This document shows, in pieces, positions 6,282 through 43,859 of a stretch of 43,859 bases of DNA (positions are counted from its first letter, which is position 1; each line of letters starts with the position of its first letter). A model generated the notes under the pieces. That model saw nothing but the letters and a program-made list of their open reading frames with translations. It did not search any database and was not told the DNA's origin. The translations under genes and the position numbers were made by a program. The stretch is from assembly GCA_021325235.1 (NCBI GenBank), contig JAJPHN010000037.1:1-43859 (forward strand), given 5' to 3'. This stretch comes from Terriglobia bacterium (GTDB taxonomy: Bacteria; Acidobacteriota; Terriglobia; Bryobacterales; Bryobacteraceae).

Positions 6282-6782
6282 CTAAGCCACCGCCAGGGCA
6301 CCGGATGCCAGCGTGCCGAAGGTCGCGGCGAGCGGACCGAGCGCCAGCACGTCCTGCTGGAAAGCGGGTAGCAGATAGCGTTGCGCGATGTAGTCCCAGG
6401 GCGTGTTGTACTGCAGTAGCAGGACGCCGGCCCCCGCCGCATGTGCATCCTTGGGTGCGGACGGCAGCATCTGCATGAACGGGAACGCCGCACGCCAGCG
6501 CTGGACGGTAGCTGTCAATCCGTCCGCACTCAGAGCCGTCACGATGACCGGCTCGTTATCGATCAGCAGCGTGCGTCCGACGATCGATTGTGCAGCCGGT
6601 TCGGCGAAAACGAGACTGGTGGCGGTTTGATCTGCAACCGCCTGCGCGAGAATCGCCACAGGACCGCCCGCCTGCCTGAGCCAGAGCGTGTTCATATCGA
6701 CGACGTTGGCCGGCTGCATCGTGAGCTGAATAGTCGCCTGAATGGAAGTGATGATGGGCGTGGACGAAGGTGTTGTACTCAT
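6282..6782 (-). CDS. hypothetical tail-tip protein
   Basis: A 166-residue protein within the fibre gene cluster, 12 bp from each neighbour. The N-terminus is Ser/Thr/Pro-rich. The middle has beta strands with Leu-Leu-Ile-Asp-Asn-Glu-Pro-Val and Ala-Thr-Val-Gln-Arg, a pattern seen in small phage proteins of unknown role. The C-terminus is Ala/Leu-rich. I do not recognise a named family. A virion-tip or fibre-assembly function is inferred from position only. Confidence 0.5.
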   Translation of the reverse strand: MSTTPSSTPIITSIQATIQLTMQPANVVDMNTLWLRQAGGPVAILAQAVADQTATSLVFAEPAAQSIVGRTLLIDNEPVIVTALSADGLTATVQRWRAAFPFMQMLPSAPKDAHAAGAGVLLLQYNTPWDYIAQRYLLPAFQQDVLALGPLAATFGTLASGALAVA

Positions 6783-6794
6783 AGAAGTCTTTCG

Positions 6795-7898
6795 TTAGGC
6801 AACGCGAACCCAGCCGGCAAGAATTACATTTACCGTGCCCGCCGTGAAATTCGCGCCGCCACTGATGGAAATCGAAATCGTGTTGGTGGCCGCGTTATTC
6901 GCAAATGCGACGGCGTTTTGCCAGGGACCGCTTGCGCCCGGAATATAACCCGCGTAGAGCCACACGTAGGGACCGACGGTCGATACAGGCAACGTCACGT
7001 TCAGGGTGGAGCTCATCGTTCCGCCAAGTGTCGTCGAGAACTGCAGACTGAAGACCAGGATCGGACCGATGCGGCAGTACTGTGCGCTCTGAAACGTCGT
7101 GCTCGAGGCCGTCATCGAGCCGCTGCCTGTCACCGTAGGTGTCCAGGTCTGGAAATTCGAGCCGAAGGAAATCGAGGCTGGGTTGGAGAAGGCCGCCGCG
7201 CCTGAAACCGCGAAGCTCGCGAGATTGACGCCGCTCTGAAAGGTGGTCGCCGGCGTAATCGTCAGTGCGCCGGTCTGCGCCGCGATGCTCAGCACGTTGG
7301 TCCAGCTATCGGTCCCGCCCGAGCTCGAGCGGGTGTTGTACTGCAACTGCAGCAGGTCGTTTGCGGCCGCCGCGCCCTTATACGTGCTGAGCTGAAACTC
7401 CTGCCAGGACGCATTGGCCGTTGTGAAGTACTCGGGCGAGTTTGCGTTCGAGTAACACGGCCCGTTAAACGTCGCCGATCCCGCGAATGAAGCCGCGCCG
7501 AAGGAGGCCAGGCCCTGAAACGAAGCCGTGCTGTTGAAATTCGCCGCGCCCAGGAACAGCGCCCCTGAGCCAAAAGTTACGCCGACGGCGACGTTCAGCG
7601 CGCCCGTCTGCGCCGCTACGCTCAGGACCGAGGACCACGAATCGGAGCCGGCGGGATTCGTGCGGGTGTTGTACTGAATCTGGAACGTATCGGCCGCCTG
7701 GTTGGCACCCGCGACGGCTGCGACCTGAAACTCCTGCCAGCTCGCGTTCGTCGTCCGCAGACCGGCCGATGGCAGATCGGTCAGCAGATTGCCGGCGGCG
7801 CTGACAGGGCCCAGCCACGAGGCAATCGCAGCCGACAACGCGTTGTACTGCGCTGCGAGCGCAGGCGTTTGCGACGATACGCTCGGCCAGCTAGGCAT
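6795..7898 (-). CDS. putative tail fibre with duplicated module
   Basis: A 367-residue protein with an internal duplication. Thr-Asn-Ala-Ser-Trp-Gln-Glu-Phe-Gln, then Gln-Tyr-Asn-Thr-Arg, Asp-Ser-Trp, and Ala-Ala-Gln-Thr-Gly-Ala-Leu occurs near residues 50-98 and again near 160-210. The region between is a Phe/Gly/Ala repeat typical of fibrous beta structures. The C-terminal 120 residues are beta-rich and end in a Trp-Val-Arg-Val-Ala tail. It lies among fibre genes and overlaps the start region of the preceding small gene by 8 bp. The receptor-binding role is inferred. Confidence 0.65.
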   Translation of the reverse strand: MPSWPSVSSQTPALAAQYNALSAAIASWLGPVSAAGNLLTDLPSAGLRTTNASWQEFQVAAVAGANQAADTFQIQYNTRTNPAGSDSWSSVLSVAAQTGALNVAVGVTFGSGALFLGAANFNSTASFQGLASFGAASFAGSATFNGPCYSNANSPEYFTTANASWQEFQLSTYKGAAAANDLLQLQYNTRSSSGGTDSWTNVLSIAAQTGALTITPATTFQSGVNLASFAVSGAAAFSNPASISFGSNFQTWTPTVTGSGSMTASSTTFQSAQYCRIGPILVFSLQFSTTLGGTMSSTLNVTLPVSTVGPYVWLYAGYIPGASGPWQNAVAFANNAATNTISISISGGANFTAGTVNVILAGWVRVA

Positions 7899-30597: not shown

Positions 30598-30626
30598 TTG
30601 TGATTCGTACAGATGTGTACGATAAT
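30598..30626 (+). promoter_or_regulatory. hicAB promoter with operator inside the spacer
   Basis: ttgtga (30598-30603) and gataat (30621-30626) are separated by exactly 17 bp. tcgtaca (30605-30611) and tgtacga (30616-30622) form a perfect 7-bp inverted repeat with a 4-nt centre, lying between the two boxes and over the edge of the -10. The hicA start is 7 bp downstream. HicB commonly represses its own promoter, so this is the likely operator; binding is inferred. Confidence 0.7.
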
Positions 30627-30632
30627 AGAGTT

Positions 30633-30851
30633 ATGAAATCGACCGAGCTTCTACGCAAGCTGAAGAAGCTGGCAAAGAAGCGCGGTCTTGAATTGACGAT
30701 CGCAGCAGCCAAGGGAAGTCACCGCAAGGTCTACTTCGGTGAAGCGCAGTCGGTGATACCTGAGCACGCCAACTCGGAGCTCAAAACGGGAACGCTCAAA
30801 GGCATTCTGAAACAACTCGGCATCGAGGAGAAGGATTTGTATGAAAGCTAA
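30633..30851 (+). CDS. hicA: HicA-family toxin
   Basis: A 72-residue protein from ATG 30633; the longer upstream frame would start inside the promoter. It has the HicA pattern: a helix at 3-17, then Ala-Ala-Lys-Gly-Ser-His-Arg-Lys-Val-Tyr-Phe with the expected catalytic His30, then Ile-Pro-Glu-His and a helix Gly-Thr-Leu-Lys-Gly-Ile-Leu. HicA cleaves mRNA. It overlaps the hicB start by 11 bp, so the pair is coupled. Confidence 0.85.
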   Translation: MKSTELLRKLKKLAKKRGLELTIAAAKGSHRKVYFGEAQSVIPEHANSELKTGTLKGILKQLGIEEKDLYES

Positions 30852-31287
30852 ATCATTGGTCTATCCAGCCGTTTTTTCCCCCGAAAAGAAGGGCTATAGT
30901 ATTTCATTTCCCGATTTTCCGGAAGCTAACAGTCAGGGCGACGACGATGAGGACGCGTTTCGCATGGCGGTTGATTGCTTGAATGCCGTGTTGGAGTACC
31001 GGATGGAAGAGAAAGCGGAGATTCCTGCACCCTCGCCGGTACGCAAAGGGCAACGCGCCATTCCGGTATCGCTCGATCTGGCACCGAAGCTGGCACTCTA
31101 CCAGCTGATGCACGATCAGAAGATCTCGAACGTAAAGCTCGCAAGAAAACTACGGATCAGCGAGGTCGTCGTTCGCCGCATGCTGGATCCGAATCACCAG
31201 AGCAAACCGGAGCAGTACACTCGGGCCCTGGCGGCACTGGACGCGGCTGTGCAGGTCTCGGTCGTCAAACTCCGCCGCTCGGCCTGA
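30841..31287 (+). CDS. hicB: HicB-family antitoxin
   Basis: A 148-residue protein. Residues 1-60 match HicB: Tyr-Pro-Ala-Val-Phe, Gly-Tyr-Ser-Ile-Ser-Phe-Pro-Asp-Phe, and an Ala-Phe-Arg-Met-Ala-Val-Asp helix. Residues 75-125 hold a helix-turn-helix (Lys-Leu-Ala-Arg-Lys-Leu-Arg-Ile-Ser-Glu-Val-Val-Val-Arg-Arg-Met) that should bind DNA, most likely the inverted repeat in the hicA promoter. It neutralises HicA. Confidence 0.85.
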   Translation: MKAKSLVYPAVFSPEKKGYSISFPDFPEANSQGDDDEDAFRMAVDCLNAVLEYRMEEKAEIPAPSPVRKGQRAIPVSLDLAPKLALYQLMHDQKISNVKLARKLRISEVVVRRMLDPNHQSKPEQYTRALAALDAAVQVSVVKLRRSA

Positions 31288-31305
31288 AATCTCAGGGAGC
31301 GCAAC

Positions 31306-31461
31306 ATGCCAACCTGCAAGACAGGTAAGGATTGCCACGCATCAAAAGCGGCTGCGTTGAAATCGCTCGGTCGCCGCATGAAACTTGCCAAGCCCGACGA
31401 ACGAGACAAGATTCGCCCTTACAGGTGTGAAATCTCTAAGACTTGGCACATCGGGCACTGA
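31306..31461 (+). CDS. small Cys/His-containing protein
   Basis: A 51-residue protein from ATG 31306 with an agggag element upstream. It has Cys4 and Cys10-His11 near the N-terminus, and Cys41 with Trp-His-Ile-Gly-His at the C-terminus, an arrangement compatible with metal binding. Similar tiny phage proteins ending in Trp-His-x-Gly-His exist. It follows hicB and may be in its operon; the role is unknown. A 59-bp non-coding interval then separates it from the convergent operon. Confidence 0.6.
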   Translation: MPTCKTGKDCHASKAAALKSLGRRMKLAKPDERDKIRPYRCEISKTWHIGH

Positions 31462-31520
31462 CAGTCGCGATGCGGACTGCCGTCAACGTCCGGTACTCCC
31501 GAACGTAACCTCTGCCTTCG

Positions 31521-31796
31521 CTATGACTTCCCACCCTGTGCAGCGTCTACAAACCCCTGATCATCGGCGCGCCCCGGCTTCTTAATGAAATTCGGATCGG
31601 TGTGAAAGGCTGCTAACTGCTCGGTCGTGAAATCGCCGAGAGCCTGACGGAGTTCGGCGCCCGTCGCACGCATCTCGCCGAGTACGGCAGCCTTTTCCTC
31701 CAGATTTGAGCCCCAGCGCTTATGTAGGCTGCCCAGATTGCGCAGACACTCCTCAACTTTCAGGCTGCAAGTAATTAGTTCTTTTTCCTCAATCAT
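31521..31796 (-). CDS. hypothetical helical protein of the PAS operon
   Basis: A 91-residue, largely helical, charged protein. Its start overlaps the stop of the PAS gene by 4 bp (ATGA), so the two are translationally coupled. No family is recognised. It may act together with the PAS-domain protein. It is the last gene of the three-gene minus-strand operon and faces the hicAB transcript. Confidence 0.55.
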   Translation of the reverse strand: MIEEKELITCSLKVEECLRNLGSLHKRWGSNLEEKAAVLGEMRATGAELRQALGDFTTEQLAAFHTDPNFIKKPGRADDQGFVDAAQGGKS

Positions 31797-32449
31797 CCCG
31801 CGACGATCCTCGGCTTGCTATGCGCGGCAGCGGGCTGCACAATCCCTGCGAAATAGCGTAGCCGGCGAGCACGATCCCGAACGGCCCAGACCTGAATGGT
31901 AGCCCACACGATATTACCTTTTCGGTGCAGATAGCGTTTCCGCATCCAGTACGAGTCGCTGGCACCGCTGATGAGTTCCAGCACGTTCTCCCAATCCTGC
32001 TGCACATCGTCTGGGTGCGTGATATCTGCAAATGTCATTTTCTCCAGCTCAGTAGGCGTGTATCCGAGCATTCGCGAAAAGACCGGATTACACACTAAAA
32101 TTTTTCCATCGAGAGCCACTTTGGCCATCCCGTAGCCGGCGAATTGCATCAACGATCGAATTTCGTTGTCGTCCTCAGCTCGGGAGCTCTCGGAGAATCC
32201 AGGTGGTCGGCGTCTTACCTTCTCTTGGGAACATGCCTCACCCAGTCTTTCGATTTCGCTTCGAATTTCGTCTAGGATTTCGGTCCCAGCTGTCAAGCTC
32301 TTGCTCCAAAGCGTTTGCTGCCTCTTCAGCATTTCGCATAACTCGTCTATCCTCTCGTACGGTTTGTCCCCGGTCGGCGTTTTGGCCCGATCGGACCGGC
32401 GTCTCCCTCGCAGCGGAGCGGGCGCCGGCATCTGAATGATGTTCGACAT
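31793..32449 (-). CDS. PAS-domain protein without an enzymatic output domain
   Basis: A 218-residue protein. Residues 1-90 are charged and helical with Ile-Asp-Glu-Leu-Cys and Glu-Ile-Leu-Asp-Glu-Ile-Arg-Ser-Glu. Residues of about 95-205 are a PAS domain with Asn-Pro-Val-Phe-Ser-Arg-Met-Leu-Gly-Tyr, Glu-Leu-Glu-Lys-Met-Thr-Phe and Ile-Thr-His-Pro-Asp-Asp. No kinase, GGDEF, EAL or HTH part follows. PAS domains sense ligands, redox or light and mediate dimerisation. Here the operon lies beside the control region, so a signal-responsive regulatory role is inferred. Confidence 0.8.
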   Translation of the reverse strand: MSNIIQMPAPAPLRGRRRSDRAKTPTGDKPYERIDELCEMLKRQQTLWSKSLTAGTEILDEIRSEIERLGEACSQEKVRRRPPGFSESSRAEDDNEIRSLMQFAGYGMAKVALDGKILVCNPVFSRMLGYTPTELEKMTFADITHPDDVQQDWENVLELISGASDSYWMRKRYLHRKGNIVWATIQVWAVRDRARRLRYFAGIVQPAAAHSKPRIVAG

Positions 32450-32897
32450 CGGCCTGTACGGCCACTTGAGTATTTAGACTCTGCGCTACGATCTGGCGCA
32501 TGGCCGGGTCATTCAAGACCACGGACAAAAAGGCTCGCAGCGACTCGGGATCAGTACGTACCGTACTGAGTATCTCTGGCCACACAGCCAAAAAATTGTT
32601 GACGCTTTGTGGAAAGTCTGTGGATTCAGAGACTTCACTAACATTTTCACGTGAGTGAGCAAGTTTCTTCGCTTCCTCGCCGGCCAGCATCACGAGATCC
32701 CCGCCGAACTCCACGTAATGCTCTATGAACTGGAGCAGCACCTCTTTGATGCCCAGCCCGCGCCGATCCAGAACCTGGATGAAGCGCTTCTTGAGCTCCT
32801 CCTCGGGCCCGGTGAGCGCAAAGGAGATCTGCTCCTTCTTCGGCTTGGCTTTTTTTTTCGCTTCAAATGCAATAAGTTGCGGGGATCTGTTGGACAC
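32238..32897 (-). CDS. putative RHH-type regulator, first gene of the PAS operon
   Basis: A 219-residue protein with a GTG start at 32897. A short basic N-terminus is followed near residues 22-65 by Ile-Ser-Phe-Ala-Leu, then two helices (Glu-Glu-Glu-Leu-Lys-Lys onward and Gly-Ile-Lys-Glu-Val-Leu-Leu-Gln-Phe). This is a possible ribbon-helix-helix fold. The rest is helical with an Arg-rich C-terminus (about 150-219) that overlaps the PAS gene by about 210 bp in another frame. It reads away from the CTAG array, so it may be a repressor. The domain call is tentative. Confidence 0.5.
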   Translation of the reverse strand: MSNRSPQLIAFEAKKKAKPKKEQISFALTGPEEELKKRFIQVLDRRGLGIKEVLLQFIEHYVEFGGDLVMLAGEEAKKLAHSRENVSEVSESTDFPQSVNNFLAVWPEILSTVRTDPESLRAFLSVVLNDPAMRQIVAQSLNTQVAVQADVEHHSDAGARSAARETPVRSGQNADRGQTVREDRRVMRNAEEAANALEQELDSWDRNPRRNSKRNRKTG

Positions 32898-32915
32898 GGG
32901 TGTAAAATTCCCTTG

Positions 32916-32985
32916 ACTAGCGAACTAGTTTGCTAGAAACTAGTTGTATACCGCACTAGCGATACAACAAATGAGCGCACTAGTT
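32916..32985. promoter_or_regulatory. CTAG operator array in the divergent control region
   Basis: ctag occurs at 32917, 32925, 32933, 32940, 32956 and 32980. The steps are 8, 8, 7, 16 and 24, so the sites lie on an approximately 8-bp grid. Five of six are preceded by A; aactagtt occurs twice (32923-32930, 32938-32945). The array lies between the two divergent start codons 32897 and 32971, the last site being just inside the rightward gene. gttgtat (32943-32949) and atacaac (32962-32968) form an inverted repeat within it. RHH repressors often bind such tandem short sites; binding is inferred. Confidence 0.7.
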
Positions 32986-33168
32986 CACCACCCAGATGTA
33001 CCACAGGAAGCACCTACCCCGCCGTACCGTTACCTGCAGGTTCGGTTTCCTATCGAGATCTACAACCGAATCCGAACTCTGGCGTTTGAGCGGGAAACGT
33101 CGCGGCAGGCGATCATCCTCGAGGCCGTCGAGCGCGCACTGAAAAGCTCGTCGAAGGGCGGCCGCTGA
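32971..33168 (+). CDS. ribbon-helix-helix DNA-binding protein
   Basis: A 65-residue protein from ATG 32971; a longer frame from 32944 would run through the control region. It has Tyr-Arg-Tyr-Leu-Gln-Val-Arg-Phe-Pro followed by two helices (Ile-Glu-Ile-Tyr-Asn-Arg-Ile and Ser-Arg-Gln-Ala-Ile-Ile-Leu-Glu-Ala-Val), the ribbon-helix-helix (CopG/Arc) layout. It is the first gene of the rightward early operon and sits on the CTAG array, so autoregulation is likely. It overlaps the next start by one base. Confidence 0.75.
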   Translation: MSALVHHPDVPQEAPTPPYRYLQVRFPIEIYNRIRTLAFERETSRQAIILEAVERALKSSSKGGR

Positions 33169-33554
33169 TGCCGTTCGACGAAGCCTATCCCTGCGACGAC
33201 TGCCGCTGCCGGACCTTTGCCTCTGAGGTCGTCGGCGACTGCCAGGCGCCGAACTGCTGGCGCACGTGGCTGTGCGAAGACTGCGGCTTCGAATGCCAGT
33301 ACTGTCACGAGATCTTCTGTGAACAGCATTCGACCGTCATCTCCGGCGACGACGAATCGAAGCTGCGCTATGCGTGCGACCGCTGCATCGCACGCCGGTT
33401 CGATAGCGAGCTGCTGCTGCACCTGCAGAACATCGCGATTCACGCTCTGAGCTCCGGCTGGGACGTGATCTCGCTTCGAAACCAGAAGGGCATTCTGCAC
33501 CTGATCGCCGAGACGAAGAACCAGGTGCTGCTGGGCGGACGAAAGGCCGCCTGA
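33168..33554 (+). CDS. Cys-rich putative zinc-binding protein
   Basis: A 128-residue protein. The first 80 residues contain thirteen cysteines, including Cys-Asp-Asp-Cys, Cys-Glu-Asp-Cys, Cys-Gln-Tyr-Cys-His and Cys-Asp-Arg-Cys, typical of a multi-zinc module. The C-terminal 45 residues are helix and strand without cysteines. It starts at the overlap TGATG with the RHH gene, indicating coupled translation. No family is recognised. Confidence 0.6.
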   Translation: MPFDEAYPCDDCRCRTFASEVVGDCQAPNCWRTWLCEDCGFECQYCHEIFCEQHSTVISGDDESKLRYACDRCIARRFDSELLLHLQNIAIHALSSGWDVISLRNQKGILHLIAETKNQVLLGGRKAA

Positions 33555-33590
33555 GTTTGCATTACTTACTTCATTCAAAAAGGAAAAACT

Positions 33591-34679
33591 ATGAATCTGC
33601 AATTTAAACGCGCCGTCAAGTACGGTGCCAAAGGACGGCTCGCTTTGATCGGCCCTTCAGGGTCCGGCAAGAGCATGTCCGCACTGAAGGCAGCCCGCCG
33701 CCTGGCTGGTCCGAACGGGCGAGTCGCTTGCATCGATACCGAGCATGGCTCGCTTTCGAAGTATGCCGACTTGTTCGAGTTCGACGTCATTGAGCTGAAC
33801 AACTACTCGCCCGAGAACTTCTTCGCCGCTTTCGATGCGGCCGAGCAGGCTGGCTACGACGTGATTGTGATCGATTCGATGTCCCACTTCTGGATGGGTG
33901 CCGGAGGCGCGCTCGAGTACGTCGATATGGCGCGCAAACGATCGGGATCACGCGATGACATGGCCGGTTGGAAGGACTTTCGTCCGGTTGAACGGCAGAT
34001 GCTCGAGCGCATGATCGGATCGCCGATGCACGTCATCGTCACCATGCGCACGAAGACTGCGTATGAGGAACAGATCAACGAGCGGACCGGCAAGAAGCAG
34101 CGCGTGAAAATCGGCCTGGCGCCGGTGCAGCGCGAAGGCCTCGAGTACGAATTCGATTTCGTGGGCCTGATGAACGAAGACAACGAACTGATCACGGACA
34201 AAACTCGCTGCCCGGCGTACGCCGGCAAAGTCATTGCCAAGCCGAGCGAAAAGGACTTCGACGCGTTTGCCGAGTGGCTAAAAGGCGAAGAGCGCGCGCA
34301 AGCGCCAGCCGCGGCACCGATCGAGCACCCGCAGCCATCTGCCAAACCTGCGCCGGCGAGTGCTCCGGCAGCGGCCGCCAACTCTGAAGTACCCGAGCTG
34401 GTCCAGGATCTCTGGAAGCAAATGAGCGATAAGCCCGGCTTCGCACGAGTATTCGGCGGTTTCCTGCAGACGTTTCAGCGCCTGCTCGGCGAAGAAGCCG
34501 GCAACGAGGCATTTAACCAGGTGCTCGGACTGCATGGCGTCGACAGCTGGCAACACTTCAAGGGCATGCAGGCCGCGCGCCGCTGCGTGCTGGCACTGTA
34601 CAACAAAGCCCTCGAGCTGAGCGAAGGCAGTCAGCTCGATCTGTACGCCGAGAGCGTTTCTGAGCGAGGTGCGGCATGA
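33591..34679 (+). CDS. RecA-like AAA ATPase, Sak4-like recombinase
   Basis: A 362-residue protein. Walker A Gly-Pro-Ser-Gly-Ser-Gly-Lys-Ser at 21-28 follows Leu-Ala-Leu-Ile; Val-Ile-Val-Ile-Asp-Ser with Met-Ser-His-Phe-Trp near 90-101 is Walker B. Gly-Arg-Val-Ala-Cys-Ile-Asp-Thr-Glu and Ile-Val-Thr-Met-Arg-Thr-Lys also fit Sak4-like phage ATPases that aid single-strand annealing. A Pro/Ala-rich linker (235-265) and a helical C-terminal domain follow. It is coupled to the Gp157 gene by a 4-bp overlap. Confidence 0.75.
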   Translation: MNLQFKRAVKYGAKGRLALIGPSGSGKSMSALKAARRLAGPNGRVACIDTEHGSLSKYADLFEFDVIELNNYSPENFFAAFDAAEQAGYDVIVIDSMSHFWMGAGGALEYVDMARKRSGSRDDMAGWKDFRPVERQMLERMIGSPMHVIVTMRTKTAYEEQINERTGKKQRVKIGLAPVQREGLEYEFDFVGLMNEDNELITDKTRCPAYAGKVIAKPSEKDFDAFAEWLKGEERAQAPAAAPIEHPQPSAKPAPASAPAAAANSEVPELVQDLWKQMSDKPGFARVFGGFLQTFQRLLGEEAGNEAFNQVLGLHGVDSWQHFKGMQAARRCVLALYNKALELSEGSQLDLYAESVSERGAA

Positions 34680-35314
34680 GCGCCGCCCTTGCACCGCGGG
34701 CGCCATCGCTGTTTGAGCTCGAGCACGAGCTCGAGTCGCTGCTCGATACGGAAGCGCTGGTCACCCCGGAACAGGAGGCCGAATTTCGTCGGGAACTCGC
34801 CTCTGCGCTCGAGGCTTCCGTCGAGAAGCGCGACCGTGTGTACGCCTTCCTGCGTCACTGCGAACTGCAGGCCGAGAACTGTGACGCCGAGATCGCGCGC
34901 TTATCCGAGCGCAAGCGCACCTTCGAAGCAGCCCACAAGCGCATGCGCCAGTACGTGCAGAGCGTGATCGAGTCGCTCGGCACGGATGCCAAAGGCAAGC
35001 CGAAGAAGTTGGAAGGCAAGACCGTCACGTTCTCGTTGCGCGCGAGACCGGCATCGGTCGAGATCACCGACGAGTTGCTCGTGCCCGAGGAATACAAATC
35101 AGTCGTCGTGAAGCTACCGCTCGAGGCCTGGCAGCTCATCTGCGACGAATTCGAAAACGACGAGGATGATCCGGTTTGGCACGACCTGAAAAAGGCCAGC
35201 GAGTCGGCCAGCTGCACGGTGAGCAAGACTGCGATCCGGGAAGCGATCGAAAGCGGCGTCGATGTGCCGGGTGCAGACCTGGCGATCGGCGGACACACGT
35301 TGGTAGTCAAATGA
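34676..35314 (+). CDS. Siphovirus Gp157-family protein
   Basis: A 212-residue protein. The first 110 residues are a long coiled coil (Leu-Glu-His-Glu-Leu-Glu-Ser, then Ala-Glu-Ile-Ala-Arg-Leu-Ser-Glu-Arg-Lys). Next come Lys-Lys-Leu-Glu-Gly-Lys-Thr-Val-Thr-Phe-Ser-Leu-Arg and Ser-Val-Glu-Ile-Thr-Asp, then the C-terminal Lys-Thr-Ala-Ile-Arg-Glu-Ala-Ile-Glu-Ser-Gly. This is the Gp157 family of phage recombination modules. It sits beside the RecA-like ATPase, as commonly seen. Confidence 0.8.
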   Translation: MSAALAPRAPSLFELEHELESLLDTEALVTPEQEAEFRRELASALEASVEKRDRVYAFLRHCELQAENCDAEIARLSERKRTFEAAHKRMRQYVQSVIESLGTDAKGKPKKLEGKTVTFSLRARPASVEITDELLVPEEYKSVVVKLPLEAWQLICDEFENDEDDPVWHDLKKASESASCTVSKTAIREAIESGVDVPGADLAIGGHTLVVK

Positions 35315-35463
35315 GACTCGCCTTCCTGAGCACTCACCCGCGTTTCCGGCCGGTGTTCGTCCATCGGTTCCTTTTCCGCCGCGCCAGCCTGCTGCGCGCC
35401 GGCGGTTTCCCGGGAGCGCGGATGAGTTTTCAGGAAGGCCGAAAGGGTAGAGATGTTTTCTGA
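35311..35463 (+). CDS. small basic hypothetical protein
   Basis: A 50-residue frame from ATG 35311 that overlaps the Gp157 stop by 4 bp (ATGA) and overlaps the next gene by 11 bp. It is rich in Arg and Phe. The tight coupling supports expression, but sequence quality is only moderate and no family is recognised; it may be a non-functional bridge. Confidence 0.35.
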   Translation: MRLAFLSTHPRFRPVFVHRFLFRRASLLRAGGFPGARMSFQEGRKGRDVF

Positions 35464-36031
35464 TCAGGTCATTTTTCGTGACGCTGTAATTGACTCGATC
35501 CACTGCAAAACGCAGGACGGCAAAGTGCAGAGCCGCATTCTCGCGCACGTGTCGCTCTCGCAGGAAGCAGCCGAGGTTCTGGGCGTGAAGTCGCTTGTCT
35601 TCGCAGAGAACGGCACGCCTAAGGAAGGGTTTCACTCACTGGCGCTCGACACCGGCTGCGCTGCGTTCCGGGCCCTCTTTGAGCACCCCGAGCTGAAGCA
35701 GTCCTTCGAGATCGCGACCGGCGACTCAACGGATTCATACGTCGTGCAGCGAATGGAGGAGGGCCGGCTGAAGCTGAAGCTGCGCCTGAACTACCACGGC
35801 GATCCGCATCCAGCGATCGCGTTCATCAACTCCGTAGGAAATGCGGAATCGAAGCTGAAAATCATTCCGCTCCAGGGCGAACTATCCGAAGACAACGATG
35901 AAGATGAAGCCCGCCCGAGGAAGAACCACGAGTATCCGCCCGAGGAGCAAATGGTGATGTCGGCCGATGCCGTGCGCCAGCGCATCATCACGCATCGCGG
36001 GCGCGGCAAGCAGGCGAGCGGAGCCAGGTAG
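35453..36031 (+). CDS. hypothetical protein of the recombination module
   Basis: A 192-residue protein. The first 140 residues are beta-rich, with Val-Gln-Ser-Arg-Ile-Leu-Ala-His-Val and Lys-Leu-Lys-Leu-Arg-Leu-Asn. The C-terminal 45 residues are acidic then basic (Asp-Glu-Asp-Glu-Ala-Arg onward). It follows the RecA-like ATPase and Gp157, so a single-strand-binding or recombination-accessory role is possible, but no family motif is recognised. Confidence 0.55.
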   Translation: MFSDQVIFRDAVIDSIHCKTQDGKVQSRILAHVSLSQEAAEVLGVKSLVFAENGTPKEGFHSLALDTGCAAFRALFEHPELKQSFEIATGDSTDSYVVQRMEEGRLKLKLRLNYHGDPHPAIAFINSVGNAESKLKIIPLQGELSEDNDEDEARPRKNHEYPPEEQMVMSADAVRQRIITHRGRGKQASGAR

Positions 36032-37445: not shown

Positions 37446-37708
37446 ACCAGTGCCGCTTCTGCGGGTGCACAGACAACAACGCGTGCGTCGACATGGAAAC
37501 CGGTATGACGTGCGGCTGGGCCACTGCTGACGTTTGCACGTTCTGTAGCGAGCACGACCCCGTCGCTGACTTCGTGCTGCAGGCCCGGTTCGCGCATCTG
37601 CTGGCGGAACGAACGATACCGGAGTTCACGGCCGAAGAACACGCACGCGCAGCGCGCTTATATCAAGACCTCACGCTTGAAACTACCTCGCTCGGAGTCG
37701 TGCAGTGA
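37442..37708 (+). CDS. small Cys-rich protein
   Basis: An 88-residue protein. The start Cys-Arg-Phe-Cys-Gly-Cys, then Cys15, Cys25 and Cys32-Thr-Phe-Cys35, gives a zinc-ribbon-like module. The C-terminal half is helical, with Phe-Thr-Ala-Glu-Glu-His-Ala-Arg. It is coupled to the neighbouring genes by 4-bp overlaps. Such proteins are frequent in phages but not assigned a role. Confidence 0.6.
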   Translation: MNQCRFCGCTDNNACVDMETGMTCGWATADVCTFCSEHDPVADFVLQARFAHLLAERTIPEFTAEEHARAARLYQDLTLETTSLGVVQ

Positions 37709-38193
37709 AACACCCACCGTCGCCGGCGAAACTGCTGGAAGCCGAGGTCACAAAGCAAATCCGCGGATTTATGGAGTTCCGCGGCTGGCGCGCTATACGC
37801 ATGCAGCGTACCGTCGTGCCTGGCGCGTTCCAGAGCGGTGAGCCGGGCATTCCGGACTTTCTGTTCATCCGCTACCTTCCGACCGAGTTCAGCGGCCTCT
37901 CAGTCGCCTGCTGGGTCGAGATGAAACGCGCCAAGTATGGCAAGCTCAGCGAGGACCAGAAGCGCTGGCGCGATCGAGAAACGCACCGCGGCGCCGTTGT
38001 TCTGAAGGCGGACAACATCGCTGATTTTGCCGACCAGTACGAAGAGTTGTTCGGTTGGCTGCACACAGAAACGTGGGTGCAGGGCCAGCAGCAGATCAGT
38101 TTTGAACAGGCCGGTGATTTGCAGCGCCTGAATCAATCCCTTGGGAAAGGAGGCCCGGCGATTTGCCAAACCGAATCCTGCGCGAAGGGATAA
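37705..38193 (+). CDS. VRR-NUC nuclease
   Basis: A 162-residue protein with a GTG start. It has the PD-(D/E)xK core in VRR-NUC form: Gly-Glu-Pro-Gly-Ile-Pro-Asp (Asp51) and Trp-Val-Glu-Met-Lys (Glu72, Lys74), preceded by a helix with Glu-Val-Thr-Lys-Gln-Ile and followed by Gln-Lys-Arg-Trp. It probably acts as a structure-specific or Holliday-junction endonuclease in phage replication and recombination. It overlaps the replication gene by 31 bp. Confidence 0.8.
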   Translation: MKHPPSPAKLLEAEVTKQIRGFMEFRGWRAIRMQRTVVPGAFQSGEPGIPDFLFIRYLPTEFSGLSVACWVEMKRAKYGKLSEDQKRWRDRETHRGAVVLKADNIADFADQYEELFGWLHTETWVQGQQQISFEQAGDLQRLNQSLGKGGPAICQTESCAKG

Positions 38194-42061: not shown

Positions 42062-42345
42062 TCCTGGTTGCGGGATTCTTCTATGCCCTGGGCTGGCGCC
42101 TTGCGACGCGCCGCCATGAGCGGGTCGAAGAGATTGCGCAGGAGTTGCGCGCGGGCGTCATCAATGGTTGGCCGCCACTACCGAGACCGCTGCCGAAAAT
42201 GCCCACGCCACCGGCTCCGCCGCGGTCCGAGCCAATCGACTCCAGCTGGCAGAGGAATCATGCCTACGCGGTGCCGAAATTCACGAATGCGGTGCCGGCG
42301 TATGTGGTCGTCGGAGAGAACAGTTTGAGAGGGGAAGGGAAATGA
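42040..42345 (+). CDS. membrane-anchored Pro-rich protein
   Basis: A 101-residue protein. I chose ATG 42040 over ATG 42034 because an aaaggagga element gives proper spacing only to the former. One hydrophobic segment (3-19) is followed by a charged helix and a Pro-rich region (48-70). It overlaps the excisionase-like gene by 4 bp. No family is recognised. Confidence 0.5.
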   Translation: MLEITVLILVAGFFYALGWRLATRRHERVEEIAQELRAGVINGWPPLPRPLPKMPTPPAPPRSEPIDSSWQRNHAYAVPKFTNAVPAYVVVGENSLRGEGK

Positions 42346-42623
42346 GTGCGTTTGCAGTGAACCGGGCGACCGAAGACAATACTCGCGGTTCCGTCGACGA
42401 AGCCATTGCGCGTGTAGTGCGTGAGGAGATTGCAAAGATCAGCCTGCGTCGGAAGCAGGTGCTCGACATAGACGAAGCGGCCGAGTACCTGGGTGTCAGC
42501 GTCAACCAAGTGCACAACTTCATTGCCGACGGAAAGCTTACGCCGGTGCGTTACGACCGCCGGCTGCGTTTTGACATCGATGACCTGAACCGGCTGATTC
42601 ACGAAAGCAAACGCCGGTCCTAG
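42342..42623 (+). CDS. excisionase-like HTH protein
   Basis: A 93-residue protein from ATG 42342; the longer frame upstream is a shadow. Val-Leu-Asp-Ile-Asp-Glu-Ala-Ala-Glu-Tyr-Leu-Gly-Val-Ser, then Val-His-Asn-Phe-Ile-Ala-Asp-Gly-Lys-Leu-Thr-Pro-Val, and Arg-Phe-Asp-Ile-Asp-Asp-Leu form a MerR/excisionase-type helix-turn-helix. It lies just upstream of the integrase, so it is the best candidate for the recombination directionality factor. Confidence 0.75.
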   Translation: MSAFAVNRATEDNTRGSVDEAIARVVREEIAKISLRRKQVLDIDEAAEYLGVSVNQVHNFIADGKLTPVRYDRRLRFDIDDLNRLIHESKRRS

Positions 42624-42662: not shown

Positions 42663-43787
42663 GTGAAAAAGCGCACATACGGCACTGGCTCATTCCGGCA
42701 ACTGCCGAGCGGAAAATATCAGCTCCGCTATCACGGAAAAACCAAAGTCGTCGAGGCGAAGAACGACAAAGCCGCCGACCGGGAGCTCGACAGATTCGTT
42801 GACGAACTCGACCGTGAAGAGCGCGATGGGCCAGCGGTTTCGATGAACAAGCTCTTCGATTTGCATCTCGCTGACCTCCGTCGGATGAAACGCGACTCGC
42901 TGGCGATTACGCAACAACGCCTGGAGAAACACCTGCGCGCTATATTCGGCGACCGCGATGCCACTGCGATCAGCCGGCGCGATATCACAGCCTATGTCGA
43001 TGCGCGGCTGCAGGCCGGCGCCGCGAATGCGACGGTCAACCGCGAGCTCGCCATTGTCCGGCGCGCCTTTAAGATCGGCATCGAGGAAGAATACATTTTC
43101 AAGATGCCGAAGGTCACGAACCTGCCCGAAGATAACGCGCGCCAGGGCTTTGTCGAGGAGGATGTTTACCGGACGATGCTGCGCGAACTGCCGCAGCACG
43201 TTCAAGCACCCTGGGTGTTTAGCTACTTCACCGGCATCCGCAAGGGCGAATTGCTGAGCCTGCTCTGGGACTGGGTGGATTGGGACCGCTGGGTGATCGA
43301 GGTGCCCGGCTCGATTACCAAGAACAAAAAAAAGCGCATTATCCCGGTGTACTCGGACATGCGGCAGTTTCTGCGCCTGGCGTTTGAAAACCGCAACCCG
43401 GCGTGCCCTTACATTTTCCAGAAGGACGGAGCGCGCCTGCGCAGCTTCCGAACCGCCTTCGACAATGCGCGTGAGCGGGTGAACCTGCCCGCGCTGCTGT
43501 TTCATGATCTGCGGCGTACGGCGGTCCGGAACATGGAACGCGCTGGCATCCCGCGCACGATGGGGCGCCAGGTCAGTGGCCACCTAACGGAGGCGGTCTA
43601 CATCCGTTACGCGATCGGCGCGGAACGCGACGCGGTCGAGGTGGGCGACAAGATGCGGGCCTTCCACGAACAGGAGCGCGCGCGGCAGTCCGCGGAGTGG
43701 GAAAAATTGTGGCACGAATTGTGGCACGACGATTCCGGAGACAAACGACAAGGCTCGCCCCAAGGCGGCCCTAAGTATAAGCAATAG
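42663..43787 (+). CDS. int: tyrosine-family site-specific integrase
   Basis: A 374-residue protein with a GTG start. It has an N-terminal arm-binding-like region (1-45), a core-binding domain (about 55-150) and a catalytic domain with Arg193 (Thr-Gly-Ile-Arg-Lys-Gly-Glu), Lys near 220-224, His281-x-x-Arg284, His307 and the nucleophile Tyr316. The C-terminal tail (Trp-His-Glu-Leu-Trp-His) is encoded by the same 24-bp repeat found at 103-126, so part of the gene doubles as a binding site. It integrates at the tRNA-Leu site. Confidence 0.9.
   Translation: MKKRTYGTGSFRQLPSGKYQLRYHGKTKVVEAKNDKAADRELDRFVDELDREERDGPAVSMNKLFDLHLADLRRMKRDSLAITQQRLEKHLRAIFGDRDATAISRRDITAYVDARLQAGAANATVNRELAIVRRAFKIGIEEEYIFKMPKVTNLPEDNARQGFVEEDVYRTMLRELPQHVQAPWVFSYFTGIRKGELLSLLWDWVDWDRWVIEVPGSITKNKKKRIIPVYSDMRQFLRLAFENRNPACPYIFQKDGARLRSFRTAFDNARERVNLPALLFHDLRRTAVRNMERAGIPRTMGRQVSGHLTEAVYIRYAIGAERDAVEVGDKMRAFHEQERARQSAEWEKLWHELWHDDSGDKRQGSPQGGPKYKQ
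43703..43726 (+). repeat. integrase arm-type repeat, right copy, inside int
   Basis: The identical 24 bp of 103-126, with aattgtggca at 43705-43714 and 43717-43726, lies within the 3' coding end of the integrase. It is about 116 bp from the right core. The position inside a gene is unusual for an arm site; binding is inferred from its repetition on both sides of the core. Confidence 0.7.
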
Positions 43788-43798
43788 ATGTATTTATT

Positions 43799-43859
43799 TG
43801 GTGCGGATGGAGGGATTTGAACCCTCACAGAACGTCAGTTCTGCTGGAACCTAAATCCA
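43799..43859 (-). tRNA. tRNA-Leu(UAG), 3' part
   Basis: Read on the minus strand this is the 3' part of a class II tRNA-Leu: an anticodon loop with UAG, a long variable arm (cagaac/gttctg stem), a T arm (gaggg/ccctc around ttcaaat) and an encoded CCA (tgg at 43799-43801). The 5' half lies beyond the window. The first 17 bases of this segment are the att core, so the phage supplies the 3' half and restores the host tRNA after integration. Confidence 0.85.
43843..43859. repeat. attachment-site core, right copy
   Basis: The 17 bases at the end of the window are identical to 1-17 and cover the tRNA-Leu anticodon loop and adjoining stem. With the integrase upstream they form the right att core. 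In the circular form this and the left copy are the same sequence. Confidence 0.85.

Follow-up and report, generated by a model that had tools for sequence, protein, structure and literature searches.

Organization of the locus

We have analysed a locus at which, in a 43,859-bp stretch of DNA (contig C39 of a 60-contig, 5.03-Mb genome bin, hereafter the window), the early genes of what appears to be a temperate phage are read in two directions. Three leftward genes, which we call P1, P2 and P3, diverge from a rightward gene, P4, at the head of a recombination/replication operon (Table 1). An earlier note on this DNA had described the same layout, with three minus-strand genes facing a plus-strand ribbon-helix-helix (RHH) gene that heads the replication operon, and all the open reading frames (ORFs) concerned are present. 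P4 starts either at ATG 32971 or at TTG 32944, from which the frame is open, and ends at 33168, overlapping P5 by 1 nt. The third gene of the rightward operon also matches a Sak4-like family (PHROG 124, E = 5.3e-15). The leftward genes are tightly packed: P2 and P3 overlap by 4 nt (ATGA), and 212 nt are shared by the ORFs of P1 and P2. Across these 212 nt the base composition speaks only mildly for the P2 frame, and the start of P2 is therefore uncertain.

Table 1. Features of the control locus and of the attachment (att) region, in window coordinates.
Feature	Position	Strand	Basis
P1, 219-aa putative RHH regulator, candidate lysogeny repressor; GTG start; first gene of leftward operon	32238..32897	-	ORF
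P2, 218-aa PAS protein	31793..32449	-	ORF, PAS_3 match
P3, 91-aa protein, no assigned family	31521..31796	-	ORF
P4, 65-aa Arc-like RHH protein, first gene of rightward early operon	32971..33168	+	PHROG 2639 'Arc-like repressor', E = 0.0012
Candidate operator, six CTAG boxes (32917, 32925, 32933, 32940, 32956, 32980)	32917..32983	none	
P5, 128-aa Cys-rich protein, second gene of rightward operon	33168..33554	+	ORF
AAA_24 / Sak4-like recombination ATPase	33591..34679	+	Pfam AAA_24, E = 4.5e-26; PHROG 1366, E = 7.2e-75
Gp157/Gam-like protein, same rightward operon	34676..35314	+	Pfam Sipho_Gp157, E = 4.9e-25; PHROG 253, E = 2.1e-23
Integrase adjoining att site	42663..43787	+	PHROG 1 integrase, E = 8e-46
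att region, 3' part of tRNA-Leu gene	43799..43859		Identical on host contig C45

An array of CTAG boxes between P1 and P4

The control region between P1 and P4 contains six copies of CTAG, which the earlier note did not mention. They span the intergenic region and, with the last box, the first codons of P4, and their spacings (8, 8, 7, 16 and 24 bp) keep mostly to an 8-bp register. In 2000 local shuffles of the 93-bp region 32898-32990, which is already rich in the letters of CTAG, at most 4 copies were obtained, and six in none of them; in 300 shuffles of the whole window the maximum was 5 copies in 75 bp, reached once. Apart from this array, CTAG is about twofold depleted in the window (33 copies in total, 74.4 expected), and the remaining 27 copies are at least 84 bp apart, the cluster at P1 and P4 being the sole one. 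The 8-bp register was equalled in 85 of 20000 random placements, in a post hoc test chosen after the spacing had been seen. Boxes of 8 bp in tandem are characteristic of MetJ, an RHH repressor, and what is found here, short boxes repeated in register near a gene start, has by its sequence the form of an RHH-type operator. We regard the array as a candidate operator for P1 and P4.

P1 and P4 as RHH proteins

The assignment of P4 to the RHH proteins, as first proposed, stands with modest strength; for P1, which the note called a possible RHH protein, it is weak. Besides its PHROG match, P4 matches Pfam Antitox_RHH at E = 0.01, below the cut-off of that family, and has a modestly recognisable RHH (Arc-like) sequence. 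The core of P1 (about residues 20-66) reads by eye as strand-helix-helix, and its sole Pfam match is RelB, at sub-threshold values (E = 0.067-0.17); RelB is itself an RHH antitoxin. Full-length P1 gives one Pfam match, a DUF at E = 0.24, and none in PHROGs. The strand-helix-helix pattern and the sub-threshold RelB match point weakly to an RHH protein. No helix-turn-helix (HTH) match was obtained for P1 or P4 in Pfam, PHROGs or NCBIfam, so that these two genes do not look like a classical CI/Cro pair.

Ten further matches to P4 were seen in genomes of the family (E = 0.0016-0.0095), which span 40-54 residues and lie in frames 131-276 codons long. Five of them (E = 0.002-0.009) lie in 142-145-codon frames of different genomes and perhaps represent a host RHH family.

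As for other regulators, our Pfam scan took in 36 ORFs of the window, some of them mutually overlapping and not genes; the late leftward ORFs (3422-30426) were outside it, and the rightward ORFs 35453-36031, 37705-38193 and 42663-43787 were scanned with PHROGs only. Among the 36 ORFs there was no CI, CII or Cro repressor, so that the earlier statement that none is visible elsewhere holds over that range, and no antirepressor was matched among the rightward ORFs scanned. The HTH matches that did occur belong to a HicB antitoxin, weakly and in its C-terminal part (HTH_26, E = 0.19; CII-like, E = 0.033), and to an excisionase-type HTH_17 ORF (42168-42623; Pfam E = 6.5e-11) just upstream of the integrase. 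The HicB gene and that of its HicA toxin (HicA_toxin, E = 1.2e-10), at 30600-31287, adjoin the P1-P3 operon.

The PAS protein and P3

The PAS domain of P2 occupies about residues 97-206, behind some 90 N-terminal residues that belong to no family. It is matched by PAS_3 of Pfam (E = 3.6e-13, 50 bits against a cut-off of 25.6) and by the S-box/sensory_box model of NCBIfam (E = 2e-16, 60.2 bits against 22.9); its best family match is a DgcE-type PAS (E = 1.6e-30), with the whole-protein cut-off of DgcE unreached. On these profile matches we are confident that the domain is secure. The protein stops 12 residues after the PAS match and no output domain was matched, neither HTH nor GGDEF, in agreement with the earlier description of a PAS protein lacking one. 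P3 had no match up to E = 0.1 in any of Pfam, PHROGs and PADLOC, and one weak match in NCBIfam (E = 0.021). PADLOC likewise had no match for P2, and for P1 a single methyltransferase match at E = 0.048.

Neither P2 nor P3 had a match at E<=0.1 in 31 loci that carry a relative of the AAA gene, or at E<=0.01 in 31 more; the two sets share some contigs, and in several loci (e.g. L060, L117, L119, L131, L135) less than 2.5 kb lies upstream of the AAA gene, so that a divergent operon could fall outside. Against the loci that it had brought in itself, P2 matches two host PAS proteins. Searched against phages at E<=10, the PAS part reached E = 7 at best; searches of phages with P1, P2 or P4 and of plasmids with P1 gave nothing useful, and among viral contigs the window's own was the only one matched by P1, P2, P3 or the P1 alignment.

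Several possible origins of P2 and P3 were tried and set aside. A fresh copy of a host gene as the source of the PAS domain was rejected, the best counterpart in 120 related genomes being 38% identical and part of a 788-codon frame, and those in its own genome bin only 25-27% identical. The N-terminus of P2 and P3 are not clear duplicates of each other (24 of 500 shuffles scored as well). Their matches at E = 0.008-0.1 in, respectively, 29 and 16 other genomes of 237 were taken as noise; some of these reach E = 1e-4 when re-scored among the fetched loci alone, which is not independent support.

The same position in related elements

Among 150 relatives and 237 genomes of the family, P1 has a counterpart at E<=0.001 only in its own genome and in G004, a genome of the same genus. 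The G004 protein (91 aa, 43% identical over the first 82 residues of P1) is divergent from the same AAA-Gp157 operon, and its start is preceded, at a distance of 13-32 bp, by two AGCTAGCT boxes; when the G004 contig was shuffled 300 times, two 8-mers of this kind were seen once. No P4-like gene was seen in the G004 locus and no P4 match was obtained there, which ties the CTAG boxes to P1 rather than to P4, on two cases. Behind the P1 relative lie a polynucleotide-kinase-like gene (L046:1971-2438; TIGR01663, E = 2.5e-16, below its cut-off) and an 87-aa gene, with PAS and P3 absent; the order P1-P2-P3, whose conservation in relatives the earlier note had made a test of its proposal, is therefore not kept in the sole relative with a P1 homologue. 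The polynucleotide-kinase-like gene is perhaps another lysogen-expressed gene. By eye, the genes towards both ends of the G004 contig look like those of a host, and the locus may be a prophage remnant. In L134 the G004 protein had a match at E = 2.4e-4, which was rejected: it consists of two weak pieces in an Arg-rich frame and is not seen by P1.

When viral contigs were scanned with the AAA alignment, 32 loci came up, including that of the window itself. In L115, whose AAA protein is 61% identical over residues 3-243, a minus-strand 67-aa gene (6672-6875) faces a plus-strand 77-aa gene (6966-7199) across a 90-bp gap, both being RHH-like as judged by eye. Of the two, the plus-strand protein is similar to P4 (none of 1000 shuffles scored as well); L115 has no P2 match and shows no PAS gene. 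Solved structures were uninformative throughout. By profile P1 found no RHH chain in the PDB, P4 none among its matches up to E = 10 and the L115 minus-strand protein none; the L115 plus-strand protein listed CdbA (E = 0.23), a CopG-family RHH chain (E = 0.82) and otherwise unrelated chains; and the G004 relative was no more informative.

L116 encodes an 81-aa minus-strand protein that we read by eye as a Cro-type HTH, and in Mycobacterium phage Wee two divergent genes, both with an annotation as transcriptional repressor, lie some 7 kb upstream. Of 19 genome loci, 10 each contributed one divergent ORF; three of these ORFs gave HTH_3/HTH_31 matches, one a UPF0102 nuclease match and six none. 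The ORFs were chosen with a quick gene caller that may miss genes, and that missed the plus-strand RHH-like gene of L115. In L113 (5636-5854) and L114 (7100-7288), small minus-strand ORFs upstream of the AAA gene share by eye a GG-A-A / ARKAA-ARW pattern and could be the regulator of these relatives. One further locus with a relative of the phage AAA gene, L076 (DYOB01000022.1), is titled as a Borreliella garinii metagenome-assembled genome, an odd title that may be a mislabel.

Comparison with known systems

The mnt and arc regulators of phage P22 (immI) have the RHH fold and divergent promoters. The locus studied here is like immI in having, at a control region, two small putative regulators that are divergently oriented; as to the RHH pairing, the match of P4 is modest and that of P1 below threshold, and a similar-looking pair is found in L115. 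However, immI lies in the late region and provides secondary immunity, whereas the pair described here heads the recombination/replication operon. In P22 the antirepressor gene ant is under the control of mnt and arc (PMC8022706), whereas the rightward operon of the window continues with P5, AAA_24 and Gp157. Unlike in P22, no CI was found among the ORFs scanned, and P1 is longer and followed by a PAS gene.

Mx8 is the top-ranked named phage by its AAA protein (48% identity over two thirds of AAA). In the Myxococcus phages Mx8 and Mx9, the 'primary repressor Imm' and the 'immunity protein', respectively, are divergent from the operon of the AAA relative, as is P1. A function of imm in superinfection immunity has been described, according to a review (PMC6070905). 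The 432-bp intergenic region of Mx8 has one CTAG, compared with six in the array of the window. Homology of P1 to Mx8 Imm was not accepted: hhalign returned E = 0.0055, with a probability of 6.6% over 28 columns.

In lambda cI-rexAB and in Gordonia phage CarolAnn (genes 45-44-43), defence is provided by genes that are coexpressed with the repressor (PMC6426606); P2 and P3 differ from these in having no PADLOC match. A phage-encoded PAS domain is tied to the lysis-lysogeny decision in Vibriophage VP882, where VqmA binds DPO, requires its PAS domain in order to dimerize and brings about induction by way of the antirepressor Qtip (PMC8284805). An HTH output is part of VqmA itself, whereas none was matched in P2, whose link to a switch is unproven. 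E. coli DgcE, to which the PAS of P2 is most similar by family, has three PAS domains and is a diguanylate cyclase of the membrane, whose PAS region is considered to serve dimerization and the passage of signals rather than first perception (PMC6510439); P2 has a single PAS domain and no GGDEF match. Since the PAS region of DgcE is not thought to serve first perception, the likeness to DgcE alone predicts no ligand for P2. Both phage PAS sensing in lysogeny (VP882 VqmA) and RHH proteins in phage immunity (P22 mnt/arc) are thus already known; prophage lysogeny control joining a PAS domain with a ribbon-helix-helix protein was not found in open-licence full texts, subscription papers being outside that search.

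A possible RHH/RHH switch

The reading that we prefer, with about as much belief as doubt, is that a temperate phage has its early control region here, with an RHH/RHH switch, and that the PAS gene and P3 are carried along as cargo. Whichever role the PAS gene has, cargo or sensor, we hold the RHH/RHH switch as such to be likely. P1 and P4, made from divergent genes, would act on the CTAG array between them. P1 would be the repressor that maintains lysogeny, shutting off the P4-P5-AAA-Gp157 operon and controlling its own, and P4 its Cro/Arc-like partner on the lytic side, the two working like a cI/cro pair but with RHH proteins, as do mnt and arc of P22. P2 and P3 would be made together with the repressor in the lysogen, most likely as accessory genes that are freely swapped between relatives, in the position of rexAB behind cI.

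The switch itself is supported, by position and by the sequence of the putative operator, because the CTAG array, the G004 relative, the L115 pair and the position of Imm in Mx8 and Mx9 all point to it, as do the HTH matches of three divergent ORFs in other loci and the integrase with its att site at tRNA-Leu. A number of observations weigh against the proposal. In every library tried the RHH fold of P1 is below threshold or absent, and P1 shows no clear similarity to P4 (351 of 500 shuffles as good), to the L115 minus-strand protein (367 of 1000) or to Mx8 Imm (78 of 500; 11 of 500 for the G004 relative). In G004 the spacing of the CTAG boxes is 12 and not 8, and when the 283-bp intergenic region there is shuffled 2000 times, a close CTAG pair arises 85 times. 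No divergent regulator was recognised in L113 or L114, by eye, or in the SJ270 locus (L047/L059), where two ORFs were scanned. No sigma-70 promoter-like site was found in 31200-33700, where 0.9 would be expected by chance, and the 212-nt overlap of P1 and P2 hints at a tighter bond than that of mere cargo.

This last point leads to the question of what the PAS protein does. It may be the signal input of the switch, P2 binding P1 with P3 as an adaptor and altering, in response to ligand, redox or oxygen, the hold of P1 on the CTAG boxes, so that lysogeny would follow the state of the host. The tight packing of P1, P2 and P3 (overlaps of 212 and 4 nt) argues for such a role, as does the fact that a PAS domain without an output domain must act through a partner, and VqmA of VP882 (PMC8284805) offers a precedent. 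Yet PAS and P3 are absent behind the only convincing relative of P1, that in G004, no P2 relative appears in the two sets of 31 loci, some of them short upstream, and no shared gene order marks a functional unit; we consider the sensor role possible but doubtful. In its fullest form, in which an Acidobacteriota phage has replaced CI and Cro by an RHH pair and a free-standing DgcE-like PAS protein binds the RHH repressor and feeds it a signal, the idea appears to us rather improbable. The evidence on the PAS protein is divided, since packing and the missing output domain speak for a partner protein and absence from relatives for cargo. Because G004 carries other genes behind the P1 relative and L115 has no P2 match, our analysis makes it at least as likely that P2 and P3 are passenger genes as that they are the sensor of the switch. 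In the earlier proposal, that a PAS operon lies where a lysogeny switch is expected, the early-control position has gained from the CTAG array, G004, L115 and Mx8/Mx9, and the membership of the PAS domain in the switch has found no support.

It is also conceivable that P1 and P4 just tune the early operon in the manner of Arc or Cro, lysogeny being held by another regulator, such as the HicB-type HTH protein (30841-31287) or a late-region gene. The weak Cro/CI- and CII-like HTH matches of HicB (E = 0.19 and 0.033) lend this some substance, the late ORFs were outside the scan, and by eye no divergent repressor was recognised in L113 or L114; but HicB is paired with HicA in what looks like an ordinary toxin-antitoxin unit and the only CTAG cluster of the window sits at P1 and P4, for which reasons we hold it unlikely. 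Far less probable again is a self-contained defence, exclusion or toxin-antitoxin-like unit P1-P2-P3, in which the RHH protein would regulate only itself. The core of P1 does resemble the antitoxin RelB (E = 0.067) and the HicAB genes adjoin, but P2 and P3 are unmatched in PADLOC, the one P1 match there is the methyltransferase at E = 0.048, and the CTAG array also covers the start of P4.

Phages of the Acidobacteriota are to our knowledge little studied. If the RHH/RHH switch were correct, a main immunity switch formed by two RHH proteins and a phased CTAG operator would broaden a design known from the secondary immunity of P22. It would be testable with two small proteins and a single 93-bp DNA. 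If the PAS protein also fed into it, the phage would sense the state of its host with two proteins, unlike the one-protein VqmA.

The phage element and its host

The kin of the bin include G004 and, in the same family, G069, and the host is inferred to be an uncultured Bryobacterales bacterium (phylum Acidobacteriota). The IMG/VR record UViG 3300027965_000196 holds stretches of the same contig (four loci were compared, all 100% identical) and for this reason does not count as an independent relative. Host contig C45 carries a complete tRNA-Leu gene at its end, and 107 bases there (C45:77816-77922) are identical to the right end of the window. The window begins (positions 1-17) and ends with the same 17 bases, which fall inside the 3' part of the tRNA-Leu gene. 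Because an integrase, an att site shared with a host tRNA and a 17-base terminal overlap are all present, the sequence fits a temperate phage that was integrated or circular, or both, in the sample.

The 107-base identity with C45 looks like a host-phage junction. Among the small genes near the AAA gene, the Cys-rich proteins of the window (33168-33554), of L048 (11835-12119) and of L114 (7333-7803) are alike by eye; the two that were scanned, P5 and that of L048, have no Pfam match, and P5 has no family match in PHROGs or NCBIfam either. The left end of the window holds plus-strand ORFs, mostly without a family, and within its lower-GC (53%) part a DUF6941 protein (1065-1478, E = 4.7e-18). 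A 28-base near-identical repeat (96%), at 99-126 and 43700-43726, flanks the att region on both sides; it is built of two AATTGTGGCA units, possibly arm sites of the integrase.

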